Of a stretch of 64,000 nucleotides of DNA, positions 8,160 through 64,000 are shown one piece after another. The DNA lies in assembly GCA_914767715.1 (NCBI GenBank), contig OU612072.1:25358001-25422000 (forward strand), written 5' to 3'. Under the pieces are notes generated by a model that worked only from the letters and a program-made list of their open reading frames with translations, was not told the DNA's origin and did not search any database. A program made the position numbers and the translations under genes. Source of the stretch: Membranipora membranacea. Lineage: Eukaryota; Bryozoa; Gymnolaemata; Cheilostomatida; Membraniporidae. The first letter of the stretch is position 1; every line of letters starts with the position of its first letter.

Positions 8160-8384
8160 TAGATAAAAGCTCATAAAAGTGACAATAAATGATACAAATC
8201 ACTGATTAACAACTCTAGAATACCATTGTTATCAGTTAAAAAGCATTGTTCGGTATGATAGATTTGGCATTCATGGCCCTGCTGTCTCCTGTCATGAAAG
8301 TTATCACTGTTATGTGACTGAAGCTTAGACATTGTGACATGATTCGGCGAAAAATGTTAGTGCCGCGTCCTAACACCTAATATT
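8160..8384. repeat. Dispersed repeat R (reference copy, right edge of the duplication)
   Basis: This ~225-bp unit begins with a conserved block (taaaagtgacaataaatgat) and ends with a gaaagttatcactg region. Diverged copies lie at about 39545-39735 and 40160-40370. It contains the TA at about 8215 into which the 13.5-kb transposon jumped in copy 2. Confidence 0.7.
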
Positions 8385-36650: not shown

Positions 36651-36717
36651 GTGTTCAGTGAGTCAATTAGACGGCTTATATTATAAGCCGTCTAAATTGA
36701 CTCACTGAACACAGCAC
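36646..36717. repeat. Second adjoining hairpin, ~32-bp arms
   Basis: gtgttcagtgagtcaattag...acggcttata is followed at once by its reverse complement ending gaacac, with one extra A. It abuts the right end of the large palindrome and shares the gcactgtgttcag border. Confidence 0.9.
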
Positions 36718-40370: not shown

Positions 40371-43300
40371 TTACCGCACAACTATGTTTATTGGAGTTCA
40401 GGCGAGACAGACCATCTATATGGTGTCATTTTTCTCATTTCAGGATTGCACCTAATGAGCTGCACTTTTTATGTTTGATGAATATGATGAGGGTAATCAA
40501 ATTTGAAAAAACCTTGTTTCTTTTTATGGCTGATGACATTGATTGCCATGATTCATTTATCGACTACTCCATTATAGACCCCACGGTTTCTGCACGAGTT
40601 TCAATAATATCTTTTCTTATGCCAAGAAAAATGCAACTGGCACATATACTATTTCTCTCAACTCTCAGCGCATTTGGCGTTCTGATTTTTTGCAGGTCAT
40701 AGCGAGGTCACTAACCATATTCTTAGCCAGATTTAATACATATTTACTTATTTTATGATTAGTCGAGATTCTAGTCAATGTATGACTGGGCAAGATTAAA
40801 TCTTTAAGGAAATATGATACAAACCAGCAGCAATGACTTGCTGTATTGTGTAATGGATTCGTCACGCCATGTGATGGGTGTTATGAAACTACCACAAATA
40901 CAATTTCTGGGTCAGACAATGTTAAGCTTAGCTCCCATTTATTTTCAAGCATACTGTGGTGACATTAATCATTCTTACCTATTTCTGCCACATGAACGCA
41001 AATGTTGTAAAAGCTTGTCTCCCAGGCACACAAACAACTTTGAGGCTTCTTTTAATGACAGGCCAAATATCAGAGTTTCTCAAACAAGGAAAGCTAGATG
41101 CAGTTAACAACTTTCAGACTGAAATACTCCTCGAAATCATGAACAACTAAATAACTCAACATTAACTCAACATTGTAATTTTTCGTTTAACACATAAATT
41201 TCATAGATTTCAAGGGTGATGACTCCTCTGATGGAACAGATATAAAGGCTTCGGAAACCATCAAGCTGAGTATCAATTTGTGCACTCTTAATAGACAATG
41301 GATGACTGCCTCCACATTCATCGACGTCCAACCCGTTCTAAAAGAGTAGTCACCAGCACTGGATCCTGGCCAAACACCTCATAATTTCTTCACAGCATTT
41401 TTTTTCATAATTTCCTTATAATTTCTTCTTAATTTTCCTCATAATTTTCGTCATAATTTTCCTCATAGTTTCTCATCATAATTTCTTCTAATAATATTCT
41501 CTCATAATTTCTCCTTATAATTTCTTCTAATAATTTTCTCTCATTGTTACCCTGGGTCTGAAGCTTTCTGGTAGTCGGAGCTGCCTGTCTCGGTCAATAC
41601 CTCAAAACTAGGCATCACCGACGACGAGCAGGCAGTCTCAACTCCTCAGCTCAACAGCCTCAGGTCCTTAGATGATTATGAGAATTCAAAATAATAACAA
41701 AAAATAGAAATTTTTTCTCCAATAATTTCAAGACTTAAAATCAATTTTATTGCATCAAAGTCCATTAACTTTCCTCCTACTCACGTGTGAATTTGATTTG
41801 AAAATTTCATAGGTACCCCCTCGAACTGCGACCCTTACTCCTTATTAAAATGAGATGGTTCCATGATTTACTGTGGTTTTCTTGAATTAAGAGGAAGATC
41901 ATTTTTATGCACTTAATAATCCAGCTGGTTGTGAACTTGTAATATAGAAAATAACATAGCGTGAGTACAAAGCCAATAAATCATGGTTTAATTATCAGTA
42001 CAATGGTGTACAGACTTTGTATACCATGGAGTACTTGACACCAGCTTACAAATGCTAATCCATAAATGATTGGCATCTTTGCTTGGATTTATTTTTAATC
42101 ACGCTTGTCTCCAATACAGGGTGTGAATCAATGAATACTGTCACTGAATACTGGTAAATGATATGAATAGATTTTCTCGATATACTGACGGAGATGATAC
42201 TTATGATGTCTACTTACTTTTTCAATAAAGTAAAGAGCTAGGTAAAGTAAGGAGTTAATTAAACAAAAACAATAGTCTGAAGGTCCTGAGATCTCTCCTC
42301 ACTCGGCGAGCACCAATTGTGGGATTCCGGGTTATTGAGTCACCACATTAACTATCCGCTACTGAGATCTGTGCTCATGAGCTCGGCATGATGATTCTCT
42401 CTATGTGACACTGACTTATTTAGATGTGATCTCATTTGACTCAAGAGCATGCCTTTTAATTCTTATCAAGTTTAAAATCAAACGCAATTAAACTAAACAA
42501 TACATGTCTGATTTCAACAAGTTATTCTTTCTAGTTGATGATGCCATGCATGCTCAATTTAATACATTTAACTAAATTAGTCGATGATACAAATAATCCA
42601 ACTAACTGTTATACTGTGCCATTATTAAATAATAAGTTCTATTTCCCTATAAATATCAGTAATGTAAATAAAAATATTATGATAAAAACTGTAAAACTTC
42701 CATGACTAAAAACTGACCTGTCTCCAAATGAAGTTGCAAACAAAGAGGAGCTGTATGTCGACCAGGTGGTTGCCAAACAGATCATGCTTTTCCATTGGTG
42801 AACCATGGATATGGCATGGTTCAGACACATCAAAAAACTGCTGACGCTCATCAGTAAACAAACACAAGAAAACACCAAAACACATCGGCGCCAAAAGTGG
42901 GCTGATCGGCCACAAGAGTGGGTTGATCGGCCGCAAGATTGGGTACAGATATTAAGATTAGCACTTTGATTTAATTCAGTTGCCTTCGATCAAGGTTCCT
43001 TTCATTCAGTTCACTTTGATCGAGGTTAAATTTCCTGTCTGTTACTAGCGTGTCCTCGAGTCGAGTTTGAGTGTACTGATGATGATGCTTGCTAAAATAT
43101 TGGATGTTGTTATTGTGTTTGATGTTGGTATAGAAAATTCTCCTGTTTGCTGCTGTAGATGCAACATCTGCACCCCCTGATTGCAATTGTCCTCGATTGC
43201 TATGACATGTCATAAGATCTGGCATGTAGATGCGACAAAACAATGGATTGGTAGTTATAAAGATAGTTGGCCAAAGGTCAAATGTGGTAGGCGGATTATG

Positions 43301-44212
43301 TAGGTAAAGATAATTGCTCCATTATAATAGTAAATCTGGGATCCACCTACTGGCCGGACAGAACATCATAGTGTACTACAAATAACATGGTAAATTATGA
43401 AACAATAGGTAAAAATGAGCCCAGGCATTTAATGCCTCCGATAGAAGGTTCAACGGCAGAATCTCATTGCAGTGCACAGAGTCCTGGAATTTGGTACAGC
43501 CATTGCAGCCATATTCTGTTGGTCTTATGTGTCAATTATGACTTGATCAGCAAGTAAAATTGATAGATATATATATAAACAGTGGTGATATTACAAGCTA
43601 GGCCATCCCATAAACATATCTGCAAAATATGTTGAGTATGATGTATTTATTCACAATTTTAGAAACTTATTAGCTGGGCTGCATTATAATTAAAATGCCG
43701 ATCGCGGGCTAAGGTTGGATAGACAGGGGAACCCTAAACTCGAAGTGAGATACATCAAGTGGCAAGGGGGCAAGCCAAAAATTCGTAAAATCTACGAACC
43801 ATCTACATCAAGTGAATTCAGATTTTATATTAGGTACTTTACCAGCTAAAAACGCACAGAATTTGTTTACAATTATCAATTTGACATCCAAATTTGAGTA
43901 ATTATTAATCTTAACCACATTCACAACATAGAGGCAATGATAATCATCATCATCTACAGACTATGTCTCACGTCTTCAACTTCAGCTACATCAAGTGATG
44001 ACAACTAAAGATTTTTCACAGTTACCGACACTACCTGATGCACCTAATACAATGACTGACACACTGGACAAGGGAGATGCTTCCACTGCTCTTGCAACGT
44101 ACCATGAAAGGAGCAGATTCCTTGTCATGTAAATGTTGCCAAGGCGCGTATAATTCATTACTCAGGTTGGTGGCCCTGGAATGTGCAATTTTAGTCATTG
44201 TTCCATGTTTGA

Positions 44213-44902
44213 TTACAGTTGATCATCATCATCTGCCTCTTGTTGTGATTCGTTGCTATCAGCAGCTTCCTCAAATCCAACATAGTTTCCTGATGGAAAA
44301 ACAGTTCTAATCTTTTTGGTGACACACTGAGGGATATGTCTTCGCTGCTTGTATCCACATTTTCCGTATATCCATACTGTAAACTGTCTGTATGCAATAT
44401 ACCTTCTTTTGGCATCGGTAAGTCTTCGGTTCCTTATACCAGGATGTCCAGCTTTTTGATACAAGTAGGCAACTCTATCAAGCATTGTTGTATACAAGCA
44501 TTGATGGAAAAATGATGGATGCAAAGTTATGCATTGATATCGCCCTGTATCTGCAAATAAAACGTTCTCAGCACACATTGCCTTTATTTCTTCAGACTCC
44601 TGGCAGCAGCTGACATCGAAGAAACTTTTGGCAAACTTTACTGGCACACAGCAACCATTACAGAGACACCAGTCTACAGCTGTGATACGCTGCTCATACA
44701 ATCTCTGTCTTGCCTCCTTTCTCGCTTGCGCAGCGGCTAACTCTCCAGGTTGCGCTGGTTGTTCGTCACTCCATCCAGGAGAAACATTGCCTTTGTTTCG
44801 CCGATCATTATTTGTTTGAAGCCGCTGTAGCCACCCCAGAGCATAATCATCACCCTCACTGTCACTTGAACTTCAATCAGCGATGTTGAACCTCCTAGCC
44901 AT
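44213..44902 (-). CDS. P2X7-type intracellular domain protein, second copy
   Basis: This is the duplicate of the ORF at 3314-4003, the same length and in the same context. In the C-terminal 162 residues only two changes are seen (Leu to Phe in the HPS.F segment and Ala to Pro before the GIRN motif). All Cys and His of the domain core are kept. The TGA at codon 10 (44873-44875) is shared, so it predates the duplication. Beyond that stop the frame is open in both copies. That may mean continued use of a downstream start, or simply that too little time has passed. Function inferred from the domain only: cytosolic zinc-binding module of unknown role. Confidence 0.68.
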
Positions 44903-45277
44903 AATCAGCTTATGAATAAGAAATGCCTTGGCATCTTTGCAATCTATCAAACACAAATATATCTGTATTCCAAACAATTTTACACTATAGTGCTACATAA
45001 ATAAACGATTGTTGTTGGTGGGGGCTAATTTTATTTTGCCCACAATGCAATCTTGCCTGACAGAATAGGTTAAACATGTTCCATTTCACCTTGCATATTA
45101 TTTACCAGTGATCCATAATGGATAACAACCCTTTTCACAAGCCCTAGAAATGGATGTTGGCAAAATAAGAACAACATGGTATCTTTGAGTCATCCGACCA
45201 TCTAAGTAATTGCTTGTGTTTCACAAAGATCAAAGTCAGATCATAGTTCTCTAACTGTATGGTATTATAATCATCTA

Positions 45278-45303
45278 TTATTATTATTATTATTATTATT
45301 ATT
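45278..45303. repeat. (ATT)n microsatellite, expanded in copy 2
   Basis: Copy 1 (about 4378-4402) has three ATT units followed by unique sequence (atgaactcg). Copy 2 has nine or more uninterrupted units, replacing that sequence. Confidence 0.85.
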
Positions 45304-45824
45304 ACAGTTATGCAAACACATCTTGCCAAGGATGGTTGCCAGAGCTTTCAAACTATGAATAAAGACACTCTATTCATCAATTTATCATCACTGAAAGATG
45401 TCTGTTAAATATTTGTTGATGTAAATAATCTGTGGATATTAGTAGCTATAACACTGTGTATGACATATTAGCCTTTTGGGACTACTATATCAGAGCCCTA
45501 TATAAACACTATTGGCCTGCTTTGCAGCAAACATTGTGTCACATGAAGATGCTAGCATTGTAGCAGAATAATTAGGATGGCTACCATAGCGATGTAAAAA
45601 CAACAACAATTTTTTTTTTTTCTTATCGGTAACAAGTAGTGCATTTCTTTATTATTGCTGCCTCTTTTAGTGATTTTATGGAATATTGCGATTCTGACGC
45701 AACGATCCCTTTAATAATCCAGCTGGTTGTGAACCTGTAATATGGAAAATAACATAGAGTGAGTTACAAAGCCAATAAATCATGGTTTAATTATCAGTAC
45801 AATGGTGTACAGTGTGTATACCAT

Positions 45825-47414
45825 TAGGCCAGAAGCAGCTATAGCATTAGTTGTTATGGCACGGACAATATTTGATGGCAGGATATTGATCACGTTTTAT
45901 ACTTCATTGGTGTATATTCTGTAAAATTCACTGGGTGTACCCAGTTATAGTGGTCATATTTAGAAATTAAAAGGTGTTTTTTTTTGGCGTTATATGTGTG
46001 GGGAAATAACTCCTATTCTGTGTAGTCTAACTAATCTAATCATGAGGGAATTCCAGGTTGAAATTGCATTGTTGGATTAGTTGACGTGGCAATTAATTCA
46101 CGAAGTAAACTTGTAGAGAAGTCTGCTCGTATCAGACCAACACAAATTGAAAAATTTCAATTGAATTATGTCAAACTTCTTATGGGACTAGTATGATATT
46201 GTATGGTCTTAAGACCACTGTCTTGGGGCAATTACCAACAACATTTTTGATGTTTCAAATGCCTCTTATGACATTTGTTGGCTGGCTATCTTTTGCATAA
46301 CACATGAGCAAAGAGTTCAATGAGTGCCTCACTTTTCAGCAAAGGAACCCAATTGTCAGAGTCTAAACAACTTATATATGCCCCAGCTTCGCATACTTTC
46401 CTAACATGCTAATGACATGATATGGGGATATGCAGTAGCGCTGTCTCTCACCAACCACGTCATGCAATGATAAAACATATACAATGTAGAACCCAGGACT
46501 ACTGCATCAAACTCTTGACTTCCGACTAATCACATATCGATAGTGTGAATATTTGGGATATGCAGTGGTGCTGCGGCTGAGCTTTTCAACTGGGTACACA
46601 TTTTTTTCCTACATCAAATTTGTCTCACGGCTGGGCTGCTTTTTGTCTTGTTCTCATTGAGATGTAGTGCTGTCGCTGACCACCTTTTAAAATTATGTGA
46701 TAGAATATCTTGTTAAAATCATAGTGGATCGGGAGCAACAGACATGCAGGCAATTGGATCAAACTTGTTCTAGGTTACACCCTTATTTCTTTATATTCAG
46801 CACTTAATTATACCCTTGGAACACCTTTTATTTAAACTCTTAATATTTCAATCATTAAAAGCAATCTTTAGAGGAAATGAGGATATGCTGCTGCTGACAT
46901 GATCGCTACAACTGGGTACACCCTTAATATTGGATTCAGCACGTTGTTCCACCCTAGAAACATCTTTTATTGAATTCTTAACATTTCACTTATTATAATT
47001 ATGCAATTTTGAGAAATATTTCGGATATACTGCTGCAAGACAGTATCACACTAACCTCACAAAGATCTGACATTATACTTATTGAAAATATAAATTTGTC
47101 CTGATCTAACACGAGCAGACTTCTGCAAGTTTAAATTGGCAAGTCAACAAAATCCCCACAATGCAGTTTCAACCTGGAATACCCTGAAGATTAGATTAGT
47201 AATATTACACAGAATAGGAGTTATGGCCCCACACATATAATGCAAAAACAAAACACCTTTTAATTTCTAAATATGACCATTAAAACTTGGTACACCCGGT
47301 GAATTTTACAGAAGAAACATCAATGAAGTATAATATGCAATCAGTTTCCTGCCATCAAAAATTGTCCGTGCCATTTTTTTATAGAGCAGTTACAGCTAGG
47401 TTGCTTCTGGCCTA
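45825..47414. mobile_element. Long-TIR element, copy 2 (carried by the segmental duplication)
   Basis: Same termini, same CAT flanks and same position within X2 as 4918-6506. It was therefore present before the segmental duplication. Only scattered substitutions separate the copies. Confidence 0.82.
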
Positions 47415-49204
47415 CATGGAGTACTTGACACAAGCTTACAAATGCTAATCCATAAATGATTGGCATCTTTGCTTGGATTTATTTTTAATCACGCTTGTCT
47501 CCGGTACAGGGTGTGAATCAATGTATACAGTCACTGAATACTGGTAAATATTATTTATAGATTTTCTTGATATACTGACGGAGACGATACTTATTATGTC
47601 TACTTACGATTTCAATAAAGTAAAGAGCTAGGTAAAGTAAGGAGTTATTTATACAGAAACAATAGCCAATAAATCATGGTTTAATTATCAGTACAATGGT
47701 GTACAGATTTTGTATACCATGGAGTACTTGACACCAGCTTACAAATGCTAATCCATAAATGATTGGCATCTTTGCTTGGATTTATTTTTAATCACGCTTG
47801 TCTCCAATACAGGGTGTGAATCAATGAATACTGTCACTGAATACTGGTAAATGATATGAATAGATTTTCTCGATATACTGACGGAGATGATACTTATGAT
47901 GTCTACTTACGATTTCAATAAAGTAAAGAGCTAGGTAAAGTAAGGAGTTAATTAAACAAAAACAATAGTCTGAAGGTTGTGAGATCTCTCCTCACTCGGC
48001 GAGCACCAATTGTGGGATTCCGGGTTATGGAGTCACCACATTAACTATCCGCTACTGAGATCTGTGCTCATGAGCTCGGCATGATGATTCTCACTATGTG
48101 ACACTGACTTATTTAGATGTGATCTCATTTGATTCAAGATTAAACCCTTGACTCAAGAGCATGCCTTTTAATTCTTATCAAGTTTAAAATCAAACGCAAT
48201 TCAACTAAACAATACATTTCTGATTTCAACAAGTTATTCTTTCTAGTTGATTATTCCATGCATGCTCAATTTAATTCATTTAACTAAATTAGTCGATGAT
48301 ACAATAATCCAACCAAGTATTATACTGTGCCATTATCAAATAATAAGGAAAGTTCTATTTCCCTATAAATATCATTAATGAAAATAAAAATATTGTGATA
48401 AAAACTGTAAAACTTCCATGACTAAAAACTGACTTGTCTACAAATGAAGTTGCAAGCAAAGAGGAGCTGCATGTCGACCAGATGGTTGCCAAACGGATCA
48501 TGCTTTTTTATTGGTGAACCATGCTCTTATATAGCATGGTTCCAGACACATTAAAAAACTGCTGACGCTCATCAGTCAACAAACACAAGAAAACACCAAA
48601 ACACATGTGGTAGGCGGATTATGTAGGTAAACATAATTGCCCCATTATAATAGTAAATCTGGGATCCACCAACTGGCCGTACCGAATATCATCGCGTACT
48701 ATAAATAACATGGTAAATTATGAAACAATAGGTAAAAATGAGCCCGGACATTTAATGCCCCCGAGAGAAGGTTTAACGGCAGAATCTCATTGCAGTGCAC
48801 AGAGTCCTGGAATTTGGTACAGCCATTGCAGCCATATTCTGTTGGCATTTTGTGTTTGTTATGCGGTCAATCAAAGCCGATTTGGATGTGAGAAGGTTCA
48901 CAATGTGGTTAACAACACGAACATGCTGGTCTTTGAAAAGACGCATCGTTAGCATGCCAAACGGCGTGGTTTGGCATGATCGACATGTGGAATTGCCTCC
49001 CCACGGGATTTTGTGGGCCTGTCTAGCTACACCTTTAGCCAATGATGAGCTAGTAATATTGACATTTAGATAAAAGCTCATAAAAGTGACAATAAATGAT
49101 ACAAATCACTGATTAACAACTCTACACACAGAAAAATTTTAGAGTTATTTCCATTGGAGAGGTATACACCTGAGGGTGCTGGGGGCTGGAACAATCAACA
49201 ATGA

Positions 49205-49305
49205 AAGCTCCCCCAGTGGGACTCGAACCCACAACTCCTGCGGCACTAATCGCCTGGCAGTGAATAGCAAGCACGCTAACCGATTGCGCCATCTCACCAT
49301 CCCCA
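49205..49305 (-). repeat. tRNA-derived SINE, family C
   Basis: On the minus strand an A box (tggcgcaatcggttagcg) is followed 44 bp later by a B box (gggttcgagtccc) and a complementary ctgggggagct arm. The spacing is longer than in a tRNA. It lies 80 bp inside the left end of the transposon. The following 49310-49560 includes three catgtctttcca-type short repeats and no gene. Confidence 0.7.
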
Positions 49306-49734
49306 AAAAAGAATGGGTCGATGGCGCTAATTAGATAGCCCGCTATTCACTACTCGTAGTTGTGTTCTCTCATCCCACAGCACATTCCAATCCACCATTG
49401 CCACCCTATGAAACACAGCGTACGTGTTAGGGTTATTGGCCTTACATGGCCCATTGCTGGGACCCCTTGTAGTAGGTTTAGCTGTCTTTCCAGCTTGTTA
49501 GCATGTCTTTCCATGCTGTCACATGTCTTTCCATGAGTCAGTCAGTAGACAAGTACACAAATGAATTTTTCCAAGGGTGAAGTGGGGCAACTATCTAGGA
49601 ATCAAGATAGAATCAAATACATATCACAAAGCTTCTAACAATGAATTGAAATCACCCTAAGAATTTATCATCTTTCTTTTGTTATGCACAGTATAAGCTG
49701 ATAGTCTGGTATAACAGTTTTGCTATGTGTGATT

Positions 49735-50075
49735 GATCAAAATGATTCTAAGGATAGACCATTATCCTGCTCCTAGATGCCATAGTAATTGCTCAAATAC
49801 ATCAAATGGACAGGTGAAAATCACCCCAAGTTCTCATCAGTGTCATTTTAGGCATAGATCATTTTAATCGCCCCAAATAGTTCATAGGATTCTTACATGT
49901 GATAGCAAATGCTAAAATACATGATCGACACCAGTGAAAATAACCTGAATGTATCATCAGTATCATTCTATGCATATGTCAATTTAAATCCCTCTAATAG
50001 TAGATAGGATGCTTAGATGTGACCGCTAAAACTCAAATGCATGATCCAAATCAGTGAAAACTACTCTTATTAACA
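49735..50075. repeat. Subterminal tandem repeats of the transposon (~120-bp unit, about three)
   Basis: The succession ag.taggat.ctta.atgtga, gctaaaa.tacatgatc, cagtgaaaat.acc, tcatcagt.tcatt recurs about three times with heavy divergence. Related aaatcac..taag and gattctta motifs occur close to both termini (about 49650 and 62520-62560). Subterminal arrays of this kind bind the transposase in CACTA-type elements; here that is an inference. Confidence 0.6.
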
Positions 50076-50335
50076 GCGATCCCATATCAGAAACCTGTTG
50101 GCATTTAAATGGCTACTGCTGATCAGCTATTGGAATCAAGCGAAGATTGTGAACCAAATACAAATTATTTATTTTTTAATAGACTCGTGAATAATACAGA
50201 TAATATAATGATGAAAAATCGGACTATAATTGCGAAGTTTTCACACAAAATTAAGCTTTATACAATACAACATAAGTATCTGCAATAGAATTGATACAAA
50301 AATCTCTGAACTATCGTGTAATAATGAAGCAAACA

Positions 50336-53300
50336 TCAAGGCTTTTTGGCCTTTGCCACACCAAGGATCTCTTTCTGGGTCTTCGAAAGGGTAATATTTC
50401 GGCTCCTCTCGCCAAAAACATAACACAGAAAATTAAACGTACTCTTGGCTGATTCGGGGAAATTGATGTGTAGAATGTACCGCATCAGTACGATGGCCAT
50501 GAGGAGAGTGGCCACATCCGGTACATCGACCACAAACCCTCCATGGACGCAAACATACAGCCTCTCCGCTTGAGATACCCCCACAACATGTCCCGTCTTA
50601 TTAGCTATTTCTTCTGGGCTGCCTTGCTGCAGAATGTGTTTCATCACAGTCTGAGGTTTCGGGTTTCCTATCTTTTTGAGTAGCCCGCTCACGGAGTCTG
50701 CTGCACCTATAGAAAAAGCCAAAAGTTTAGCAACTGTGTAATAGCTAAGTTTATGGTTTGATGGTAGAAATCTGAATATTTTGACAGACTAATCTTCCAT
50801 TTCCAATCAATAGAACTGTACCTAGAATTGATATATTCCGTTTATTACCCAAAATGCATCGCAAATAAGGTTCATTGCAAAGCAGCGATAAGAGGTTGAG
50901 ATGAGGGTGATATGTGTTGCTGATGGTGTCTGAATTAATTGATAAATTCATATCTCAGTTCTAAAATAGCACCACACATGATGATTTCTATCCGTCGCGA
51001 AACTAATAGCATACCCAGAAATGATGTTATTGTGTTTATAGATTGCATTTTAAATGAGGTTCAACACAAAGCAGTGGTAAAAGATTGAGATGAGGTGAAA
51101 CATTTTTATCCATTATTCATTGAGGGCCTACTTACTAGGTTTGTTGATTTCACTGAGTAAAGCCTGTAAGATGTTGAGTCCTTTTCCTGGCTGGCCATCC
51201 CCGATAATCCTTCTGTATTCCTCTTTAATCTATTGGAAAACAGAACAAATTAATGTAAAGGATAATTGGGTGGGGTGAAAGTAGGAAGCTTTGTACATCT
51301 ATGACTGGCAGTGCAGTCGCTAGGAGTCCCTTCATCATAACAAGATATCAAGCCAAAGGATGGCAAATTATAGTTTATAATTTTTTTTTTTAAAGTTGAT
51401 TGAAATCGGATGTCTTATCACTTGCCGCATCCCGAGACATGGGAAGAACATTCGTAATACACTCCAGCTAGCATGAATATATTAAAGCCAATGTAGGTTA
51501 TGGATGTTTAACCATTAAAGTCGATGGAACTTCAACGTTGGTATCAAGTTTGCATCTAAGATCCAAGTGACGAGGACATGGAAAAGGGATTCAGGAAATG
51601 CCAAGACTTATATTGGTAAACACCTTACCTCGGTCAGGTCAGTGTGTAACACTGGAAACTTTGTCAAGATGTCGCAGATCTGTGGTCCATTTTCTGATGT
51701 AACCCATTGCCTTCTCTCCTGATATGTAAGCTCCATTATAGCCTTCCTTCTCTCTGGATCAGCAGTCTCCAACTCTTTCACTAATAAAAACAAAGATAAT
51801 TACTACATTGACCCTAAATAAAAGGAAGTCTGTTTACTATTTACAAGTGGCAGGCGACAATCAATCCCTAGAAATACGATTGCGAGCTAGCACTGTTGAG
51901 CTCATAATTCATCATCTGGAGTCAATGGACTAACTAACTGCCAGCACCATAAGGCCTACACTGATTTGATTAATTCAACACACACATCAGTTGTCCAACA
52001 GTCAGCTTCAAACTCTTACTATACACCATCCCTACAGATAATGGGCAGATCAGACATTGAATAGCAGACAACCCTCCATAAAAAAAGATCATTACCTTGC
52101 TCAGCATAAGTGTCAGGCAGCTTCTGGGGAGGCTCTTCTACCGTCACTGTTGTAGACTTTCTCTTCCTCATTCTGAACTCCTCAGGCAGTCCTCGAATGG
52201 AGTTCTTGAAGCACTCATATACTGATCCTCCTAGCGGGTGTCGTAAGAAAAGCTCATCCTAAATAACGAAATCAAATTTACATGAGATTTTACTCAAGCC
52301 CAGTACTAACACATATTTTAACAGGGTTTCCTACTCTTAAAAACTTGCATAGAAATTTGAGTGTTATTGAATTTTAACGAAGTTTAACTTAGGGCGCACA
52401 TATTTCACATTTATTCTAAGTTAAACTTCGTTAAAATTTGAGGATACGTGACACATTGGGGTAGTTCCAGGGTTTATCTGCCTGCAGAAACCAGAAGAGC
52501 AGATAATGAATATGAAAGACATTGCCAACAAAAAAGAGACCGATCATACAAAAGCGCCGTATAATACTATGTCACTTGAGATTGGATATGATTACTAAGC
52601 TAACCGCCCCCACTGCAGACTTGCAGCCTATGGTTGAGGGGCAACTTCAAAATCAAAAATCAATTTTCAAAAACTTCTTAAAATTCAGAGAGTTTGTCAA
52701 TGAGGTATGATCTCGCTTCCATAGTTAGCTTGTCAGTTGTTAACTGGTAAATACGAAAGTCTAAAATAAAACTTTAATTCACCGAGTGACTTACAAAGGT
52801 GGGTGACTCAGCTGTCGATTCAAAGTCTCGCATGGCTGGGAAGTGCTCAGCTAGCTTGTTGGCTGTGAAAGCAATAACTTCAGCTATTGGATGAGACGAT
52901 TCAAATCTCTTGATGTTTTCTGTGAAGACATGTCTCACATAGTATCGAGTTATTCTGATTCGATCTTTTTTCCCCATACGTTCAGCAGTGTTCTCACGAA
53001 GCTGTGTGATTTGACCGGAGCTATACTGACCCCGTAGTCTCTCGTTGGGGTTTAGGTCAAGGCCTGAACACTAAAACGAAACAATATTTATGTCAAAATA
53101 ATACCCCATACATGACTCTTGAGATTTCAACTGAGCTAGACACACTGACCACCTTCAGTCAAGACAAGCATTGCTAGTCATTGCACAAGACCTAGAAGCA
53201 TGGTTTACATGTACATGAGAGTTATTATAACAGCACAAATTCGGAGTCACACACTTATTGGTTGTTCCATATGAGCGATCCAATGCTTATGCAGCTGAAT

Positions 53301-56300
53301 TAATCAAAGATATAATAAGATGTGGAAGCATTGGATAAATTCAAGTTCAAAAACTCTTTAACCTAGCAGCTTGCGACTTATTAATCAACTTTGGCAGTAT
53401 CACTTACAAAATGCAGAGTTGCAGCCGCTGAAGGAAATTGAGCCTGTCTTTTCTGTACATCTGAGAATAATGTAGGCAGCTTTGGAACTTTTGGTGTCAT
53501 CTGTTGTGTAGGTACAGATGGGAGCTCTTGTGTACATGGCAATATGTTTTCCTTATCAGCAAGTGATTGAGTCTAAAATATTGGAACAACCAGAAATTAA
53601 AAACACTTCAGGGCACCGATATAATATTCACTCAGCACCATAGTAGGGATAAGAAAGTGACATAATTCGCACACTTTGTCTAAAATGTAACTCAATGCCG
53701 ATAATAATAAGCCTTGTAAGCACTCATGTATTTTGTGGTTCCAAGTGACTGTGCCTGGCAACTACATAACAATAGCAATCCAGCCAACTAACCAGATACA
53801 CAAGCTTAAATCCTGAGTGGCAGAATAAAAGTCAATAAGAAATTTGAGGATGTATGATGGATTAGCGAAAGGCATTGATTTAATACAGTTTAATTCTATT
53901 CATGATTGTTACTCAGGAATTAGTGCAGTTAATTACTATGGTGAAAACTTTACTCGCTTACTGACATTCTCAGGAAACAAGAACTGAGTGGATTATACAT
54001 CGGCAATAACTGTATAACCAATTATACTGTTCAACTACTTGACAATGGTGATCCAGCCAACTAATCAGATGCACAGACTCAAATACCAAACGTCAAGAAT
54101 AAAAGCCCATTACAAATTGACGTAGATATAACCTGCCCAGGAACGATATATCTGGGAATTTACGTAGTAATTTTTTGTCATGTCAGGTTATTAACGAACA
54201 ATATGATATTTACACTACTTATTTTCCAAATGTCAGAGTGGTTTAAGTCCAACAGCATGACAACAGAGCCCGTGTAGAATGATACAGTCCTAACCAAGCC
54301 AGGGCTTATTCCCCGCACAACATTGGAGAAATGTAGATCAGAGTATGCTGGGGGCTGAAACAAACAACCTTGAAAGTCGAACCCACAACTCCTGCGCCAT
54401 CAATCGCCTGGCATTGCATAGCAAGCACCAATCGGTTGCACAACATTGGCATTGTGTAATGGAAGTTTTAATTGGTGGAACAAGAAAATATGATTTCAGG
54501 ATCGCAAGATTAATATAGGCCTAGTGATTCTAATATAAGACTATTTAAAATTCCCTTTATGTCGAGGAGATTTTAAGCATAGTATTGACACAAGCCTAGG
54601 TATCATAGTTACCCTTTTCAAGTCACGAAGATCCCGTAAGTCGAATTGCACGGACATAGATGGGTGCAAGCCACGTAAATCATCATCTGTCATGCGATGA
54701 AAGTTCTGTTCTGTTATACCAATATCTGAAATAGAGAGCCAATGCCAACCAGGTAAAATTTTGAAAATAAAGGATCAGAACGTAAAGTACAGCATGAATA
54801 TATAGTATATGCGCAAATGCACAATAAACAGCCATGAAGTTTTAACATGGGAACAGGTACCTCGGCAGTATCTATCTCAACCTAAGTTATCCAATGAATT
54901 CGGGTTGTAATTAGGTTTATCTGTGCCAGTGCAATGAGTAAGCTGGCCTGAAATGGATAATCCTTGCATCCAATATATGCCTATTTACCCAAAACTCAGT
55001 CTTGTGAGGTTTTTAGGCTCAGCTCAGGCAGGCATTTTCAACTGGTCAAGTTATATACATTGGACAAGCTTAGCCCTCAGGTCCCATAGACAAGAACTAG
55101 GCTTCAAACATAGTAGAAGTACGATACATGCCAAGCCATAAAAATTCAACATGGGAACAGGCATTTCATTGACAGTATCTATTGTAACCTAAGTAATTCG
55201 ACAATTTTGTTTTATAATTATGATTATCTGCGCCAGTGCATTGAGTAAGCTGGCCTGAAATGTCAGTCACGTTAGGTTTCTTAGGAAAGAAAAAGTTTAT
55301 AGAAATTGTCAAGCTAGTAAGTACAATATATGCCAAGCTTCACCTACATCATAAATCAAAGCCCAACCAATTTGAGGATAACAATTTTTGTAGTACATTA
55401 CTATAGCAATTAAATAACAAGTTAGACTTTAGCACCCACTTAGGCCTACAAACATCCTATAATCGGCCAGGCCTATAATCGAAGTTAACATTGGACATAT
55501 GGCTCATGGTTGCTATGTAGAGTCAAGTAACAAATGATAACAAGCTGATCCAGATTCCGGACACACAGCCTTAGAATTAAACTTCTCTTAGCACAGCCAC
55601 AAATACAAATTAACATAGAAACAGTCAAAATGGCAGCATCTATTGTGACCTAGGTAATTCAATTCAAGTTATACATGCTGAGGGGGCTAAGCCCTTAAGT
55701 ATCATAAACTTTTAGAAAACCTCAATAAATAAATAAAGAAGAACTAGGCTTCAGACATAGTAAAAGTACAATTATACACGCCAAGCCCAAATAAACTCAA
55801 CATGGGAACAGGCACGTCATTGACAGTATCTACTGTAACCTAAGTAACTCAATGAATTTGGTTTATAATTATGATTATCTGCGCCAGTACAATGATTAAG
55901 CTGGCCTGAAATGTCAGTTAGTCAGGTTTCTGGGCTAAGGCAAGTATTTTCTAACGACCTGTTAACACAAAGCGGGAAACTAAAGGTGAAATAGCAGCAA
56001 TAGGTTTTAGACATAGTCTAGCTAGATATTACAATATATGTCAAGCATCACCTAGATCGTAAATCTAAGCCCAATCATTTTAATTAAGGTTAACCAAAGG
56101 TTTGGTAGCAACTCCTTTAGTGTCTGTTACTTACATATCAAAAGACATGGTCCAATATAGCATAATATTAATGATAGCTAGTATCCAGTAGCAATATTTT
56201 GAGGACCAATAATCAAATTCATGATTATGAATGGTGCATTTCCATTTGACTTCTTTCTAACCACTAGATTATCATGCCCCACAACACATTTACTTTTCTT

Positions 56301-56555
56301 ACCTTTAGCTTTATCCTGTAGTGCTTTTCCAAATTTCGAGAGGAATTCGTGGGAGGTTGTAAACATCGATGTCTCTGCATTTTGTGGTGCTTTGGTAGTA
56401 GTTGGCAGGTCTGTTGCTATACGTGATGATGAAGAGGGTGTATCCAAACCAGGTATTGACCTCCAAGTGTCCATGATAGATTCATATTCCGGTGTTGTAA
56501 ACTTGACATCTAGTAAAGGTGTTAGAGCGGGAGATTGGATACTGTTTGATGCCAT
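50336..56555 (-). CDS. SAM-domain protein encoded by the transposon (8 exons, 528 aa, intact)
   Basis: Exons: 56555-56303, 54725-54613, 53572-53408, 53070-52795, 52258-52096, 51780-51629, 51229-51136, 50706-50336. All have GT..AG borders, phases match, and the total is 1587 nt with TAA/TAG-free frame to the stop at 50336. Residues 1-65 are Ser/Thr/Pro-rich. About 66-122 look like a SAM domain (HEFLSKF..., ITEQNFHRMTDDDL, helix DLRDLRDLK). A proline-containing linker follows. Exon 4 (about 180-270) is basic and helical (KKDRIRITRYYVRHVF). Exons 5-7 include TYQERRQWV. The last exon (about 406-528) is a compact C-terminal domain, ending LGVAKAKKP. The domain order resembles the large families annotated 'SAMD3-like' in fish and invertebrates, by recollection. 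Divergent to the transposase, so likely co-regulated from 56.56-57.04 kb. Possible roles: multimerisation, transposition accessory or host-silencing antagonist; none shown. Confidence 0.85.
52371..52437. repeat. Perfect 22-bp hairpin in intron 4 of the SAM-domain gene
   Basis: attttaacgaagtttaactt (with ag) at 52371-52392 is the exact reverse complement of 52416-52437, loop 23 nt. It may be a tiny TIR remnant. A splicing or termination role is unproven. Confidence 0.8.
54355..54450 (-). repeat. SINE family C, diverged fragment
   Basis: Shares gctgggggctg.aacaa, gtcgaacccacaactcctgcg, atcgcctggcattgcatagcaagc and accgattg-like blocks with 49165-49290. It lies in intron 1 of the SAM-domain gene. 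Confidence 0.65.
54832..55940. repeat. Tandem repeats (~305-325-bp unit) in intron 1 of the SAM-domain gene
   Basis: The marker string aacatgggaacaggcac..cagtatct..tgtaacctaagt, followed by ctgcgccagtgca.tgagtaagctggcctgaaatg, occurs at about 54845, 55150 and 55800. A partial, more diverged unit lies at about 55612. Unit spacing varies because of indels. Non-coding. Confidence 0.75.
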
Positions 56556-57041
56556 ATTAAACTAGCTTCTCAAGGATTTATAGTAGAGCTGAATTCTGGT
56601 GTGTAACCAATTTGTAAATGAGCTGCTGAGGTAGGAACCCTCCATATTCATAGGAAAAACCGACATAGCTTAGACAGAAACTAGCCCTTTGCTTGCTTAA
56701 TGGAGCTAAAAATTCAAATATAATAATAGCCTGTAACAACATAATTGGGAGGGCATATTACCTTGATAATGTAGATAATCCCCTTTACAAACTCAAATTA
56801 TAAGAATTACAGTCTATATAATAATAGCCAATGAAATGAAAGCACAATGATAACCCAACTTTTGAGCATAATTATGTGGTGGAGCTCATTGTTCTTTTGC
56901 TGGATACTAGTACTAGTAGTAAATCTGGTTAGTAGATAAATAATAAGAGTGAGTTGGTAATAGTGACACTACTAGTACTAGTAAGACTGATTGAATTGAG
57001 AGCACTTTGGGAAACTCAACAACTCGAAATTCAAGCAAGCT
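56556..57041. promoter_or_regulatory. Divergent intergenic region of the transposon (putative bidirectional promoter)
   Basis: The 486 bp between the two start codons has no ORF. It contains two actagtactagta palindromic motifs (about 56905-56918 and 56971-56983). No firm TATA box or initiator can be assigned. The promoter function is inferred from the gene layout only. Confidence 0.4.
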
Positions 57042-60000
57042 ATGAAAGGCAGTGTGATATGTAACTACTGTAGCTTTAAGGTTAATAAACAGTATGCTGG
57101 CAGAGTGATTCTAAGGCACATCCAGCTCTTCCACAAAACAGTCTGGTTACAATTCCAGAGTAATTCTTCCTCTCATCCCCTGGTGAGTAGCAGTTTTGTT
57201 TTTTCTTGCATTCACTTGTTCATGAGAATAAGAGTATCTTAATCTGCCAAATATTGTTTTTCCTCTTTGGTTTAGCCAATTGACTTCTAGTTGTACCTAG
57301 CTATGACAAAACCTACTCCTATACTGTAATAGTTATTTGGTGGGTAGGCCTTATACTATAGTGCTAACCAATATAATAGTGACACTATTATAGTGTGTAT
57401 GGTGCAATACACATAATACTGCATCAAACTTTGACATCACTTATAGTGACATAATAAGAGTAACACATGGCCCAAATTAGGTTTAGGAAAAATGGTCGGG
57501 GAGTTGGAAATCCTTGAGGGTTTGAATTGACACAAGGTTGGGTTTTGTAAGCTCCTCATGTGGAGTCTGGGGTTGACCTCCAACTGCAGCGTTTTAATGA
57601 TAGAAATTACATATGGTAGTCCTAAATGAGCTGATTCTGACATGGAATATTCATTTATAACATTTTTAGGCAACTCCATTGAGCATTCTAGCGGATGCAG
57701 AGCATCCCTGCCTCCCCTAGAACTCTGGGTATGCGCATACATGCATTGTATTATATCTCATTTTTTTAGACTTGTGGACAGTGCAAATGGGAATGTTCCA
57801 CTAACGGCAGAGACTTCTCAAAGCATCTCAATCACCATGTTAGCAACGTAATAAGTGGCGGCAATAGAACATCTAATTCTCTGAACTCGGATAAATCCAG
57901 TACTTTGGATCAAAGTGAGTCTGCTCTTCGGGTCAAAAGTTAGATTTTATAAAATATTTGCTTCGGATTTGACATTTCAAGATTTAACATTCATCCTGTA
58001 TCAGCCTTCATCAACATTTCGATGTCTGAATTCGGAAGGCCTCCTATAGTAAAATTTATTGAGTTTGCTTTCTTTTTGCAGCCAGAACAGGACATGGATT
58101 TGACGATGTCAATCAATTTAGAAGTGATGACATACAAGATGATTTTGATTCAAAAGTATTTCAATGTGGAGATGTTAATGAACTTGGTTCCCAGGAAGAA
58201 GATGATGGTAAGATCAGTGACAGAACTTTTACATGCTGCCAGCCAAGATATAATTATTAAAAAATTAAATGGTGTGACTAGGAGTAGGAGGTGGCTCAGT
58301 TGGTTAGAGCGCCGGACTTCAACACGCAAATGTTGAAGGTCGTGGATTCGAATCCCACTGCAGTCCATCTTCTACTGGGGATTGGTTGGTCCCCCAGGTG
58401 TGCTCCGACCTGCCTGCAAACAGAGAGCAAATTGGCGCAGATAATGCGGCCTCGCCAATAAGGCAATAATATTTCGGATTTTAATCAACCTTTTTAATCA
58501 ACCCATGACTTTAAAGCAACAAGTACCCGATAGCCTTTGTCCATTCTGGTTGGTCATTTGTATTGCTATTGTTTGTAGACACACAGCCTCATACGGAAGA
58601 CAAAACTGGCTCAGGTGACAGTATGATGACCCGGCAGGCTTATAGCAAAGACACCAATCCGGTACTGAGGTAAGAGTCCCGCTAGTCAATGATAGAAACC
58701 ATGCTAAAACCATCTATGTAAACAGTGCATTACTCTAAATAGTGCATTACTCTAAATATAACCATTTGTGACATAGCAGGGTTCATTATTTGGTATTTTA
58801 CCCTGAATACGTGACATACTTAGCAGAGGAAATAACGCTCTATCGATATATACACATAGACCCACACTTCTACTAGCCCAAATCGAGTGCCTGTTTACAT
58901 TTATTCACAAACTAGCTAACTTATCCCAAGGAAACATTTACTCCACTAAGGTGAATCAACATACAGCATTTGTCATCATTATCAAAGTACATTGCATTCA
59001 TTTTATGATTAGTATTGACTTGAACTCTTTTGATAGATACGTCATGGAACTCTATACCAAAGGAACTATAACGACCAAGACCATACAAACTGCAGTCAGT
59101 GGCTCACAGTCTATTCTAGAGTCGTCGATATCTGGTCTAGATACCCATTTTTCAACCCTGCTGAACATGCTACCCAACGATCTCTCTCCCCAGATCCAAA
59201 ATCAACTACAGACTATTAAGTGTTCATTGGGACAATCAAATCAATGAATCTGTTCAAAGGCCTTGAGACAGAACACCATCGTCTGAACTACCTCAAAAGA
59301 CATGGTCTCGTTCTTCCCACGTCATTCAAAATTGGTCGGATAGATCTAGACTAAATCAGATGGCGGTAGAGTGTACTCCAAAGCTACAGCTGAATATGTA
59401 TCCGTCATTGACACACTAACACTCTATATATAGATAAAATAGCTGATAAAGCACCCTATCGGCCACAAGTCATGCAGTCGTTTGCGGATTCCTCCTCATT
59501 CAAGACTAACAGTTACTATGATCACCATCCAAATGCACTGCGACTCATCTTGTACCATGATGACATAGAGGTAGGAAATGCCCTAGGGTCAAGAGCAGGT
59601 GTGCACAAGCTCACCATGTTCTATATTGTGGTGGATGACTTTAATGATGGGAAACTTAACAGTATTCACCTCTGTCTTGTTAGCCATGCTTCAGATCTCA
59701 ACAGATTTGGCTATGGCCCCGTACTTGCTCCTCTATTCAAAGACCTTGAACAACTCTATCAATGCGTTAGTATCAAGCTACACGATGGTACGGAGGCTGT
59801 CATCCATGCAGTGCTGCAACACATAGCTGCCGATAACCTAGCTGCTAATCAAATCATGGGGCTGAACCGGAGCTTTAGTAAAGGACATTATTGTAGATTC
59901 TGCTATGTCAAAGGTAATGATTGTGCCATAATGGTTGTTGCTGATCAGTCACTGCTCAGGTCCGCTACAAACCACCAACTAGATGTGGAGTTTGCTGAGG

Positions 60001-62267
60001 TAGACCCATCCTTCTCAAAACGCACAGGCGTCCGAACTCGATCCGCACTTGACCATCTATCTTACTTCTCTCTCCACGACAGCACTGTTCCAGATCTAAT
60101 GTAAGTTGAATTGGATGTTGTGACGTATAGTTAATGTTTGTGAACAACTCATTTGGGTCTATGATGAGTGCTAACTAAGTCTAAGTAAGTCTAAGTCGTC
60201 ATTGCGGAGAGGGTTACCCCTCTAGAGTACTGGTACCCATGGTACTCAAGCCGCACCCTATACCCTTGGCCGTCGGAATTCCGGCTTCTCTTATAACCGA
60301 CGAGGCAGAGGGGGATCTTTTTACTGCATGTGGAGTGTGCAATCACATAGTGGACCTCCGGTATCTTTAGCCCCGTTCCGCAAGGACCTGGCTAGGATGA
60401 ATGGCGCGCCAGTTCCAAATCAGAAATGACTGCTGGCGCCAGGAATCGAACCTGGACCTCACAGATCACAAGTCTGCATCCTTCACCATCAGACCACTCC
60501 TGACTGAGTGCTAACTTAACGTAACTTAATTGTTTTCAGGCATGATTTCTTGGAAGGAGTTGGCCCGAAAGAAGTCAGATTAGTACTCACTAGCCTAGTT
60601 GCTGATAGATTTATCACATTGGAAGAGCTGAATTCTCAGATAAAGACATTCAATTACGGGTAAGTTAGAAAGCAATACTCTGTTTGTATGATAAATTGAC
60701 TTTGATTAGTCGGCCTATGAGCTGAGTTAGCTCTTGATTTCTCTTTTTTCTACAGGGAAACATCAGCTAATGAGATAGCCGGTTACCAGTTTCCATCCAA
60801 ACTGAAAAATATATTGATATCTATATTATAAAATGTCCTTTTCAGCGAGCTCGATAAACGTAACAGGCCTTCACTGCAGCTGAATCTGGATGCCATGAAG
60901 CAGACGGCCTCTCAGATGTGGTGCCTGATAGATATTTGCCCCAACTCATCGCTCACAAGGTAAATATATTCTCGGCCTGACTTGTATATTATGAAATCAT
61001 CACTTGATTTTTTATATCAACATCTTATCAGTTGTGTAACCTGGAATAATGCGTGTTGCAGCATAGGTTCACCATATCTATGGGTGTGCAGATCATGTCA
61101 TTGTTTTTGACACAATGTGGATGTGATATACCTCTAAAAAACTATATTTTATTTGTCTTTTCTATGAACAGGTACCTCACGACAACCAGCCATGGCAAGT
61201 ATTCCTCCGTCTCAGGGCAATCATGGACATGGTTTTCTCACCAACCATCACTATGGCCGCCACGTACACCCTGTCAGGTATGCTTGAAGATCACCACTCA
61301 TTATTCCTGGAGGTGAGGCGTGTGAATATTATGTATGATACAGATTATGTATTTCTCTATGGAGTTATTCACTCTTTGACATTCATGTTCAATAAGTGGG
61401 CAACTCCTCATACATCTCATGTTGATATTATTTTTATAATCTACAGGTCTTTGAAGATTCCAAGCTGTCTCCCAAAGCTCATTGGTTGTTACACTACCCT
61501 GATTTAATCAGACGTCGCGGTCCATTGGTGCGTTTCTGGTGTATGAGGTTTGAAGGAAAACACCGTCTTGCTAAGGGTGTGTCTGCTGTCACATGTAAGT
61601 TGCCTCAGATCCACTACCTTTTAATTTACACGAATGCATGTCAACAACATTATGTTGTGAATTGAAAACAGAGTGATGACAGTGTCAATCTCTTGTTGTA
61701 ACAGCCTTTTATTTGACTGGGAATCATTTTACATTATCTGATTTATAGTGATGGAACCTTACAGACCAATTGTCTCCATTATCTGCCTGATCAACAAAGC
61801 TTTTCTTTGTGCCGTCATGGCTAATATCTGAGAATTTAGATATGCTTGTGTGTTGACTGTGTTCATCATCAATGTTTTCAGGTAACCGTAGGAATGTACC
61901 AAAGACTATTGCAAAGCGCTATCAGATCAAAGATCATGCCGAGAGAGACCCAGAGATTACCTTATCTGAACCATCAGAAACTTATAATGTCTGTATAAAA
62001 GCAGGAGACACCATAGTAGCAGCAATATGTCCTGTGATGGGTGAGCCCATTTTTGCTATCGTGGACAGATGTCCAGATGCCGAGACGTTCGTCTGTCGAC
62101 TGTATGACACTGTATTTGACAGGCATTTTTATGCCTACAGAGTGCGCCACATAAGCCAAGATCAAGTGACAATGATGTCGCGTCCTTTATTGTACAGGCT
62201 ACCAGTTAGTCGTGTTAGGACATCACTTAATATACAATATCTGTGTCTCAGGCATGCTATAGTGTAA
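57042..62267 (+). CDS. Zinc-finger EnSpm/CMC-like transposase (about 12 exons, a few frame breaks)
   Basis: Exons: 57042-57182 and 57770-57914 (each a C2H2-like finger, CNYC..H....H and CGQC..H...HH), 58082-58207, 58579-58669, 59037 to about 59400, 59441-60100, 60540-60659, 60756-60959 (two pieces), 61172-61312, 61447-61594, 61882-62267. The core at 59472-60100 has LILYHDDIEVGNALGSRAG, HKLTMFY and FCRFC. The junction 60100/60540 spells LMHDFLEGV. Later come AIMDMVFSPTIT, EDHHSLF and HWLLHYPDLI..RGPLVRFWCMRFEGKHR, all hallmarks of the animal family. It should act on the element's own CACACA ends. Defects: TGA at 59245-59247 with continuation in another frame, a further shift near 59340, a TAA at about 60829, and phase misfits around 60756-60960. 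The copy may be inactive, or some introns are misread. Confidence 0.8.
58280..58490 (+). repeat. tRNA-derived SINE, family A, complete copy
   Basis: The tRNA-like head ggtggctcagttggttagag (A box) is followed by ggattcgaatccc (B box), then the body cccaggtgtgctcc, gcctgcaaacagagagc, ttggcgcag and a tttcggattttaatc tail. The body recurs on the minus strand at 20045-20190. It lies in transposase intron 3, in sense orientation. Confidence 0.85.
60185..60510 (-). repeat. tRNA-derived SINE, family B, long copy
   Basis: The minus strand begins cagtcaggagtggtctgatg (A box), then ccaggttcgattcctgg (B box), then a ~230-bp body with ccaggtccttgcggaac and ccccctctgcctcgtcgg. The body aligns with 13801-14025. 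It lies antisense in transposase intron 6. The ctaagtaagtctaag repeat at 60175-60195 may be its tail. Confidence 0.85.
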
Positions 62268-62610
62268 TATCATTATATTGAAACTTTCATTATTTCTTTT
62301 TATATTCTACTGTTATTACTACCAGCTGAATAGTCCTTAGTCATCCATTCAAGAGAACCCAGTGATTTTGTGCTTTATTATAGTGCATCTTAAATTGACT
62401 CTGAAATGACTCTTCAGAAACCATTGATAGACTCATCAGGTTATTTTCACCCTAATAAAATTGGTCAAAATCCCAAGCATGACTCTCAACCGTTTGATTA
62501 ATTCTTAGAGTAATTTTAATCTGAAATCACTCTAATATGATTCTTACTTGACCCTAATATTGAAATGATCTTCTCAAGAAATCAATTTGATTCCAACTTT
62601 TCTTTGTGTG

Positions 62611-62781
62611 TAGAATACCATTGTTATCAGTTAAAAAGCATTGTTCGGTATGATAGATTTGGCATTCATGGCCCTGCTGTCTCCTGTCATGAAAGTTATC
62701 ACTGTTATGTGACTGAAGCTTAGTCGTTGTGACATGATTCGGCGAAAAATGTTAGTGCCGCATCCTAATACCTAATATTTA
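62611..62781. repeat. Segmental duplication, copy 2, right part after the insertion
   Basis: This matches 8214-8384 almost base for base, starting with the TA that also precedes the transposon. Homology ends where the LTR-retrotransposon pol reading frame (minus strand) terminates. Confidence 0.92.
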
Positions 62782-64000
62782 ATTTGAATTGATTGTCCAT
62801 TCTCTTCATTGGTTGGAGTGAAATGCTGGCGAAGCCTTAGGTCACTGACATGTCTGGGTGTGCTACCATCCTTAACAGCAGTGTTTGAGATGATAGCGGT
62901 TACCTCCCCAGTTGGCCATGTAGTCGTGCAGCGGGCACCAGGAGGTTTTACATACACACTGTCTCTGACACTGAATGGATTGAGATGTGTGTCTCTCTGT
63001 CGACGGAATGAGTTCCCTGTCACATCTGGCAATGACTGACCGCCGTATTGGTAGATAGACTCCGCCGGCGTGCTACAATCAACTTTTGCTGAAAAAATGT
63101 ACCAGTACACCATATCCTGTACTGAGCCACCAGAGCGAGCAACCATTCTCTTGATTGTTCTATGTTGCCGCTCTAACATGCCGTTTCCGTGCTTCTTGTA
63201 GGCACAACTGAATATATGGTCCACGTTCCACTTAGCCATAAATCCACGGAACCTCTCGCTCACATAACATGGTCCATTATCAGTTAACAGTTATTTAGGT
63301 GGTCCACGCTCATTGAAGATTTGTCCTAGTAGTTTTATGACAGCTTCGGTCGTCTCATTGGTGAGCTGTCGCCATATAGAGAATCTGCTAGGTCCACAGT
63401 CTATTAGGGTCAAGTACGGACTGCCTCCATAATGAGTGATATCTGATGCTAGTCTGAACCATGTCTCATCAACCGAAAGCTCACCATGTTCCCATCTTAC
63501 TGGTGCTGGATCAACACGTCTGCAGACTTGGCATTCCTTCACCGCTTGGACCACATCATCTTTTTGTACTGCATCGCCCCACGTACACCTGATAAGATAA
63601 AAGGTCCTTCCCACCCCAGGTGGTTAGTATCATGAAGATCACGCACAGCCTCAATAGAGTATCCGCCAACACAGCCGACTGATGCAACCTGAGCTAGAGG
63701 TTTGAGCCACTTCTTAGGAACCCTTGTAAGTGCATCAGCTAGATTAGCCTCTGACTTGACCAATACCACCTCAACATGTAAGTCATACAACTCGATTAGC
63801 TCAGCGATCATACTCAACCTCCTCCTAGTAAGCAGCTCACCAAGACCTCCGACCTTAAGACGCTTGCTGTCATTTATCACCGATTTCACCCAGCCATACA
63901 CAGTAGCAGAATCTGTCATAACTTTCATAGACTTCAACTCCCATTTTATACCACAGCTCAAACCTCTGACTACTGCCTCTAACGCAGCAACATTGATATG
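62772..64000 (-). mobile_element. LTR-retrotransposon pol fragment (RNase H and integrase), truncated by the window edge
   Basis: Minus-strand order: an RNase H-like segment (63961-63539) has MTDSATVYGWV and, near its end, SEANLADALTR. An HHCC zinc finger follows (HDTNH ... CQVC). The integrase core has SDITHY.GSPYLTLIDCG and TDNGPC, and then ERQHRTIKRM supplies the third acidic residue. A C-terminal region ends at 62772. Breaks: a 1-bp frameshift near 63610 between RNase H and zinc finger, and a TAA at 63291-63293 just before the second catalytic Asp. No LTR or polypurine tract was identified between the pol end and the duplication border. Gypsy- or BEL-like; the clade cannot be settled without RT, which lies beyond the edge. 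Confidence 0.8.

Follow-up and report, generated by a model that had tools for sequence, protein, structure and literature searches.

A young two-gene transposon, very probably of the CACTA/EnSpm type, inserted at TA in the bryozoan Membranipora membranacea

Introduction

A 64,000-nucleotide stretch of the Membranipora membranacea genome (assembly GCA_914767715.1, contig OU612072.1, positions 25,358,001 to 25,422,000; called the window here, with positions counted from its first letter) carries the same sequence twice, once uninterrupted and once split by 13,486 bp in which two genes lie. What is the inserted DNA, did it arrive as one unit, and to which kind of transposon does it belong? Comparisons within the window, across the genome and with homologous proteins indicate that it is very probably a young cut-and-paste transposon that inserts at TA and belongs to the CMCT clade (CACTA/EnSpm-Mirage-Chapaev-Transib), on the EnSpm/CACTA side. 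Published systems are cited below by PMC number.

An empty paralogous site sets the boundaries of the element

The empty paralogue reads ..AACAACTCTA/GAATACC.., with the break after position 8217 and a single TA at 8216-8217, and the occupied paralogue reads ..AACAACTCTA[CACACAG...TTTGTGTG]TAGAATACC.., where the brackets enclose the element. When the element and one TA are removed from the occupied flanks, 564/572 positions match the empty site with zero gaps. Upstream, the duplicated flanks agree at 98.4% over 8.2 kb (1-8217 versus 40937-49124); downstream, they agree at 97.1% over 174 bp (8216-8389 versus 62611-62784). The element starts with CACACAGAAAAATTTTAGAG, and its other end, read inward on the opposite strand, is CACACAAAGAAAAGTTGGAA; the termini are thus short imperfect inverted repeats, CACACA..TGTGTG. 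The paralogue comparison bears out to the base what the initial annotation had claimed, namely TA flanks, these ends, a 13,486-bp insert and an empty site near 8215. The boundary features, including the two copies of the target-site duplication (TSD), are as follows.

8216..8217, unstranded: unoccupied paralogous target site, TA, from the paralogue comparison
49123..49124, unstranded: left copy of the TSD, TA, present singly in the empty paralogue
49125..62610, plus strand (set by the transposase gene): the transposon, window copy W, 13,486 bp
49125..49155, plus strand: left terminal segment, CACACAGAAAAATTTTAGAG..., also found in copies A and B and four fragments on contig C7, and with one change in copies C and D
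62591..62610, minus strand: right terminal segment, CACACAAAGAAAAGTTGGAA in the minus-strand reading, from the copy comparison
62611..62612, unstranded: right copy of the TSD, TA, from the flank and copy comparison

The segmental duplication that supplies the two paralogues is repeat-rich, covers at least 8.4 kb of the window and extends past its left edge.

The same ends recur between TA pairs elsewhere in the genome

The genome searched comprised 339.3 Mb in 18 contigs. A search with the 3' end of the element returned five matches from five candidates, which are W and the copies A to D (12.9-13.2 kb). Copies A (contig C8, 9.86 Mb) and B (contig C2, 4.60 Mb) both read TA/CACACAG...TTTGTGTG/TA in flanks unrelated to those of W. 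The further copies with TA flanks for which the initial annotation had proposed a search therefore exist, and since A and B end at bases identical to those of W, the worry that no second copy would share its termini falls away. Copies C and D lie on contig C3 at 14.824 and 14.860 Mb, about 36 kb apart, and share identical flanks, which identifies them as one duplicated locus. Independent near-complete copies mismatch pairwise at 0.32-0.97%, and C differs from D at 0.03%; the family has moved recently.

A search with the gene-2 exon gave 13 matches, including four 5' fragments on contig C7 (1.12, 1.95, 2.54 and 2.81 Mb) that have TA at the left end and whose homology stops at window position 52170; one of the four was traced further, over 7 kb. 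The four have a common 5' flank and so also represent one duplicated locus. Because duplication of host segments multiplied both the C/D pair and the C7 fragments, the number of copies overstates the number of insertions. Older or partial gene-2 matches were also found on C5, C3 and C6. Beside the C7 fragment at about 2.55 Mb lies a further repeat family, about 94% identical, which is common to that place and to window positions 17976-20414.

A search with the transposase exon gave eight matches, among them a second family with one copy at C8:11.188 Mb and another at C5:23.379 Mb. Over its main aligned blocks this pair (about 12.9 and 12.7 kb long) agrees at 99.2-99.6%, and family 2 shares 63% DNA identity with the window element in the main transposase exon. 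Their flanks are unrelated, with left boundaries CACTA/CACACAGG and GCATA/CACACAGG and right boundaries CTGTGTG/TATTC and CTGTGTG/TACTT, so that TA stands on both sides in 2/2. Taking the families together, TA flanks both sides of 5/5 insertions with both ends intact (W, A, B and the two family-2 copies). As TA makes up 8.0% of the dinucleotides in the window, the chance of 5/5 is about 3e-6, assuming independence. The ends and the TA duplication recur in other copies and both genes are conserved in the second family, and the two-gene transposon proposed at the outset stands on these grounds.

The plus-strand gene encodes a predicted RAG1-like transposase

Translated comparison of the window with family 2 gave collinear segments on the plus strand from 57051 to 62264, at 38-70% identity. 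They outline the following exons.

57051..57191, plus strand: first C2H2-like zinc-finger exon, from the family-2 translated comparison (as are the other exons below unless another basis is given)
57770..57838, plus strand: second C-x2-C zinc-finger exon
59035..60100, plus strand: main exon, with the frame broken in W only
59559-59561, 59832-59834 and 59892-59903, plus strand, in the main exon: first D, second D and CRFC, positions read off the sequence
60540..60658, plus strand: exon with HDFLEG; the MHD..EG motif spans the splice
60844..60959, plus strand: exon
61172..61312, plus strand: exon
61447..61594, plus strand: exon with HWLLH (61480-61494) and the candidate catalytic E (61552-61554)
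61884..62264, plus strand: last exon, alignable to the C-terminal BAH-like domain found in homologue P0008

In the main exon, copy A and family 2 differ by 0.33 nonsynonymous substitutions per site (dN), and the synonymous rate (dS) is saturated. A protein search with the joined exons found 50 proteins from 2644 candidates, mostly from metagenome assemblies; the named hosts are Montipora foliosa and Lytechinus variegatus. Residue conservation was scored in 22 aligned homologues, and incomplete proteins lower the scorable totals. The first D is kept in 19/20, the second D in 22/22 and the last E in 14/14, as are both cysteines (22/22), HxxxH (14/14), the H of MHD (19/20) and the E-G that follows it (19/19). 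The same signature residues are present in the window exons. Both the homologues and the window exons thus carry C(2)C and H(3-4)H between the second D and the last E, which is the published signature of the CMCT clade (PMC12730594).

In a structure model of a homologue, the transposase core resembles the RAG1/Transib fold; the structurally aligned sequences are about 11% identical. Gene 1 is accordingly predicted to be a RAG1-like DDE transposase with N-terminal zinc fingers and a BAH-like C-terminal domain, and its core is predicted to be RNase-H-like, with D, D, E and an insertion bearing C(2)C/H(3)H. At E<=0.1, the 22 homologues matched 13 Pfam families overall, with Transposase_21 in 8, DUF4218 in 6 and Plavaka in 2. 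The 22-row homologue profile had no match among the sequences of solved structures, a BFVD fold search had none at E<=0.001, and the search for relatives among viral contigs and genome contigs returned pattern matches only, none of them confirmed. Among the papers listed by literature searches on BAH and CACTA/EnSpm, none linked the two, by which absence is not proven.

Ends, duplication and signature probably place the element with animal CACTA transposons

Members of the CMCT clade mostly have 5'-CA..TG-3' ends and a TSD of 2-5 bp (PMC12730594), and EnSpm/CACTA elements have 5'-CAC..GTG-3' ends and a TSD of 2-3 bp (in part PMC6004678); the CACACA..TGTGTG ends and 2-bp TSD seen here agree with both descriptions. 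The initial annotation had held that the element sits cleanly in neither the CACTA, the Mirage nor the KDZ group. An animal CACTA element, ENS1_Cis of Ciona savignyi, is however published as having CAC..GTG ends and a 2-bp TSD (PMC6004678), and the clade signature is present, so that the window element is best regarded as CACTA/EnSpm-type and not as an outlier. The MHDxLEG motif, which had been part of the supposed misfit, is related by position to the D-x-[LM]-H-x3-L-G motif of SmTRC1-type animal CACTA (PMC1636069) but is not identical to it.

Several observations weigh against this assignment. The Pfam scores of the homologues that were inspected fall under the curated cut-offs, no Pfam transposase family was matched at E<=1 in the ten window pieces scanned, and the structure model is that of a homologue and not of the window's own protein. 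The C/D locus reads CT/CACACAG on the left, misses the last 4 bases on the right and has no TA; either it breaks a strict TA rule or it has suffered later damage. Plant CACTA elements usually have subterminal repeats, and the window's family showed no exact subterminal repeat above shuffled chance. In family 2, a subterminal 8-mer occurs 7 times in 960 bp, a count reached in 0/200 shuffles.

The alternative that survives best places the element outside EnSpm/CACTA proper, in Mirage or in an animal lineage equivalent to ESTA. Mirage is restricted to TA, and TA duplication in 5/5 intact insertions of two families would suit it. ESTA, the EnSpm-like transposons of fungi, are themselves defined by TA TSDs (PMC12730594), which the 5/5 intact insertions have and the C/D locus lacks. 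Animal EnSpm/CACTA elements also yield 2-bp TSDs, however (PMC6004678; PMC1636069, for SmTRC1), and among the weak family matches, Transposase_21, DUF4218 and Plavaka, the first two are domains of plant CACTA transposases (PMC8978399). We regard the Mirage/ESTA assignment as a serious but less likely one and retain EnSpm/CACTA as the more probable.

Other groups were considered and rejected. Transib, like RAG, makes a 5-bp TSD and Chapaev a 4-bp TSD, and the duplication here is 2 bp. Zisupton, of the KDZ group, is excluded because its published TSD is 8 bp and the one here is the 2-bp TA. The published ends of Plavaka are TGT..ACA or CATCA..TGATG, as against CACACA..TGTGTG here.

A second gene on the minus strand is conserved with the transposon

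Gene 2 and the transposase gene diverge from about 56.5-57.0 kb. Comparison of translated pieces with family 2 gave seven collinear segments of gene 2 from 56510 down to 50363, all on the minus strand, at 29-57% identity. The exons or parts of exons are listed in coding order.

56286..56510, minus strand: probable first coding exon, with an ATG just upstream
54595..54720, minus strand: conserved exon segment, from the family-2 comparison (as are the next four)
52789..53070, minus strand: conserved exon segment
52079..52258, minus strand: conserved exon segment
51626..51787, minus strand: conserved exon segment
51149..51211, minus strand: conserved exon segment
50339..50725, minus strand: last exon region, adjoined by the stop codon, 35% identical to family 2

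The last exon differs from that of family 2 by dN 0.74 and dS 1.9. Compared with one C7 fragment it shows 7 synonymous changes against 1 amino-acid change (dS 0.080, dN 0.003), and compared with another, 6.5 amino-acid and 8.5 synonymous changes. The collinear segments in family 2, together with these counts, show that gene 2 has been conserved with the transposon. The three gene-2 pieces first scanned had no meaningful Pfam match, and the structure model is poor (predicted local distance difference test score, pLDDT, 51.7). SAMD3-like proteins of animals may have a similar end.

Gene 2 might instead be a captured host gene that is no working part of the transposon. Protein searches are in keeping with this in that the last exon alone matched a single protein (P0051, 96%) and the joined pieces matched none at E<=0.001 among 977 candidates. 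The seven segments nevertheless hold their order and strand in family 2, and the last exon shows the excess of synonymous changes in the first C7 comparison. No copy was seen outside the transposon, with the old or partial matches on C5, C3 and C6 not followed to their ends. A captured host gene is thus improbable, and we continue to treat gene 2 as a component of the transposon.

The window copy is not canonical, and its empty site very probably predates it

W is not typical of its family. It contains an insertion that is absent from 4/4 other near-complete copies:

49156..49555, unstranded: nested 400-bp unit of a dispersed tandem repeat, in W only

This repeat occurs elsewhere in 404-bp tandem steps, with at least 41 matches (40/2461 candidates scored). 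The initial annotation had concluded that everything inside the boundaries travelled as one unit, which holds for the element in general but not for 49156-49555. In addition, the transposase exons of W carry four small frame-changing indels between 59.2 and 61.0 kb that are found in 0/4 other near-complete copies. In copies A to D the main exon reads through all of its 350 codons, and it shares 99% identity with a public protein, P0001, suggesting that the transposase of W is broken (or mis-sequenced) while that of the family is intact. Substitutions private to W number 53 of 12,889 columns.

Tandem arrays of the 404-bp unit, part of which is tRNA-like, are spread over the genome (e.g., C6:19523170-19525449), and the window transposon holds a single nested unit. 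Outside the element, the window has a long near-perfect palindrome at 36394-36714, composed of a 257-bp self-inverted match at 98% and a further 67 bp at 96%.

Taken alone, the paralogue pair would also be compatible with the empty site having been derived from the occupied one by exact deletion or by assembly collapse. For an exact deletion to spare a single TA, however, its breakpoints would need to coincide by chance with the ends of the element, and identical termini between TA pairs recur elsewhere in unrelated flanks. Moreover, W diverges from A and B by 0.76-0.80%, less than the 1.6% between the duplicated flanks, as expected if the element arrived after the duplication. A deletion or collapse is therefore very improbable, and we read the empty site as the target before insertion. 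A Tc1/mariner-type element, which the TA duplication might bring to mind, can be dismissed on the C(2)C/H(3)H signature, the predicted RAG1/Transib fold and the absence of Tc1/mariner and DDE_3 from the 13 Pfam families matched by the 22 homologues.

Discussion

Our observations suggest how such an element could move. The zinc-finger N terminus and the core would bind both transposon ends, and the D-D-E site would cut adjacent to CAC/GTG. The ends would then be joined across a 2-bp stagger at TA, whose repair would duplicate the TA. Plant Spm follows a two-protein plan (TNPA/TNPD; PMC1636069), and by analogy gene 2 may act as a helper, either in binding the ends or in regulating expression. 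Through its BAH-like tail, the complex could be anchored on marked nucleosomes. The cutting chemistry, the role of gene 2 and the ligand of the BAH-like domain are, in this proposal, what we infer.

Three parts of this probable CACTA/EnSpm element are notable: its restriction to TA, its BAH-like tail and its conserved partner gene. Its family is young, clean and of CACTA type, with ends known to the base, and several near-identical copies as well as a second family are there to compare. The predicted RAG1-like core makes the structural kinship of CACTA with RAG1/Transib testable, and the tail and the partner gene suggest routes to chromatin choice or regulation. If the tail does bind histone marks, the transposase would have a built-in targeting reader. 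A broader and rather doubtful possibility is that the families represent a TA-restricted animal CACTA-like lineage in which a RAG1-like transposase with a BAH-like tail and a constant divergent partner gene unites cutting, TA choice and histone-mark targeting. The tail might then be a general but unrecognised feature of CACTA transposases, perhaps corresponding to plant DUF4216.

Among known systems, animal CACTA/EnSpm elements (ENS1_Cis and CMC-NA miniature inverted-repeat transposable elements; PMC6004678) share the CAC..GTG termini, the 2-bp TSD and the CMC clade. Compared by description, the window families differ from ENS1_Cis in that they duplicate TA in 5/5 and have gene 2, which the excerpt on ENS1_Cis does not mention. 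SmTRC1 and other animal TRC elements (PMC1636069) share the 2-bp TSD, a Transposase_21-type protein and the D-x-[LM]-H motif region, but SmTRC1 has CCC ends, a 54-bp terminal inverted repeat and a length of about 4.5 kb, whereas the window element has CACACA ends, short imperfect inverted repeats and MHDxLEG. ESTA of rust fungi, also compared by description, share the EnSpm-like type, the TA TSD and the clade signature (PMC12730594); the ESTA families reported as TET-positive carry a gene for a TET/JBP dioxygenase, and none was recognised in the window element. Plavaka (PF18759) has weak Pfam similarity in 2/22 homologues and the same clade signature, but different ends. The solved structures of RAG1/Transib share the predicted core fold and the order D, D, C(2)C, H(3)H, E, whereas the window element makes a 2-bp TA duplication and has a BAH-like C-terminal domain.

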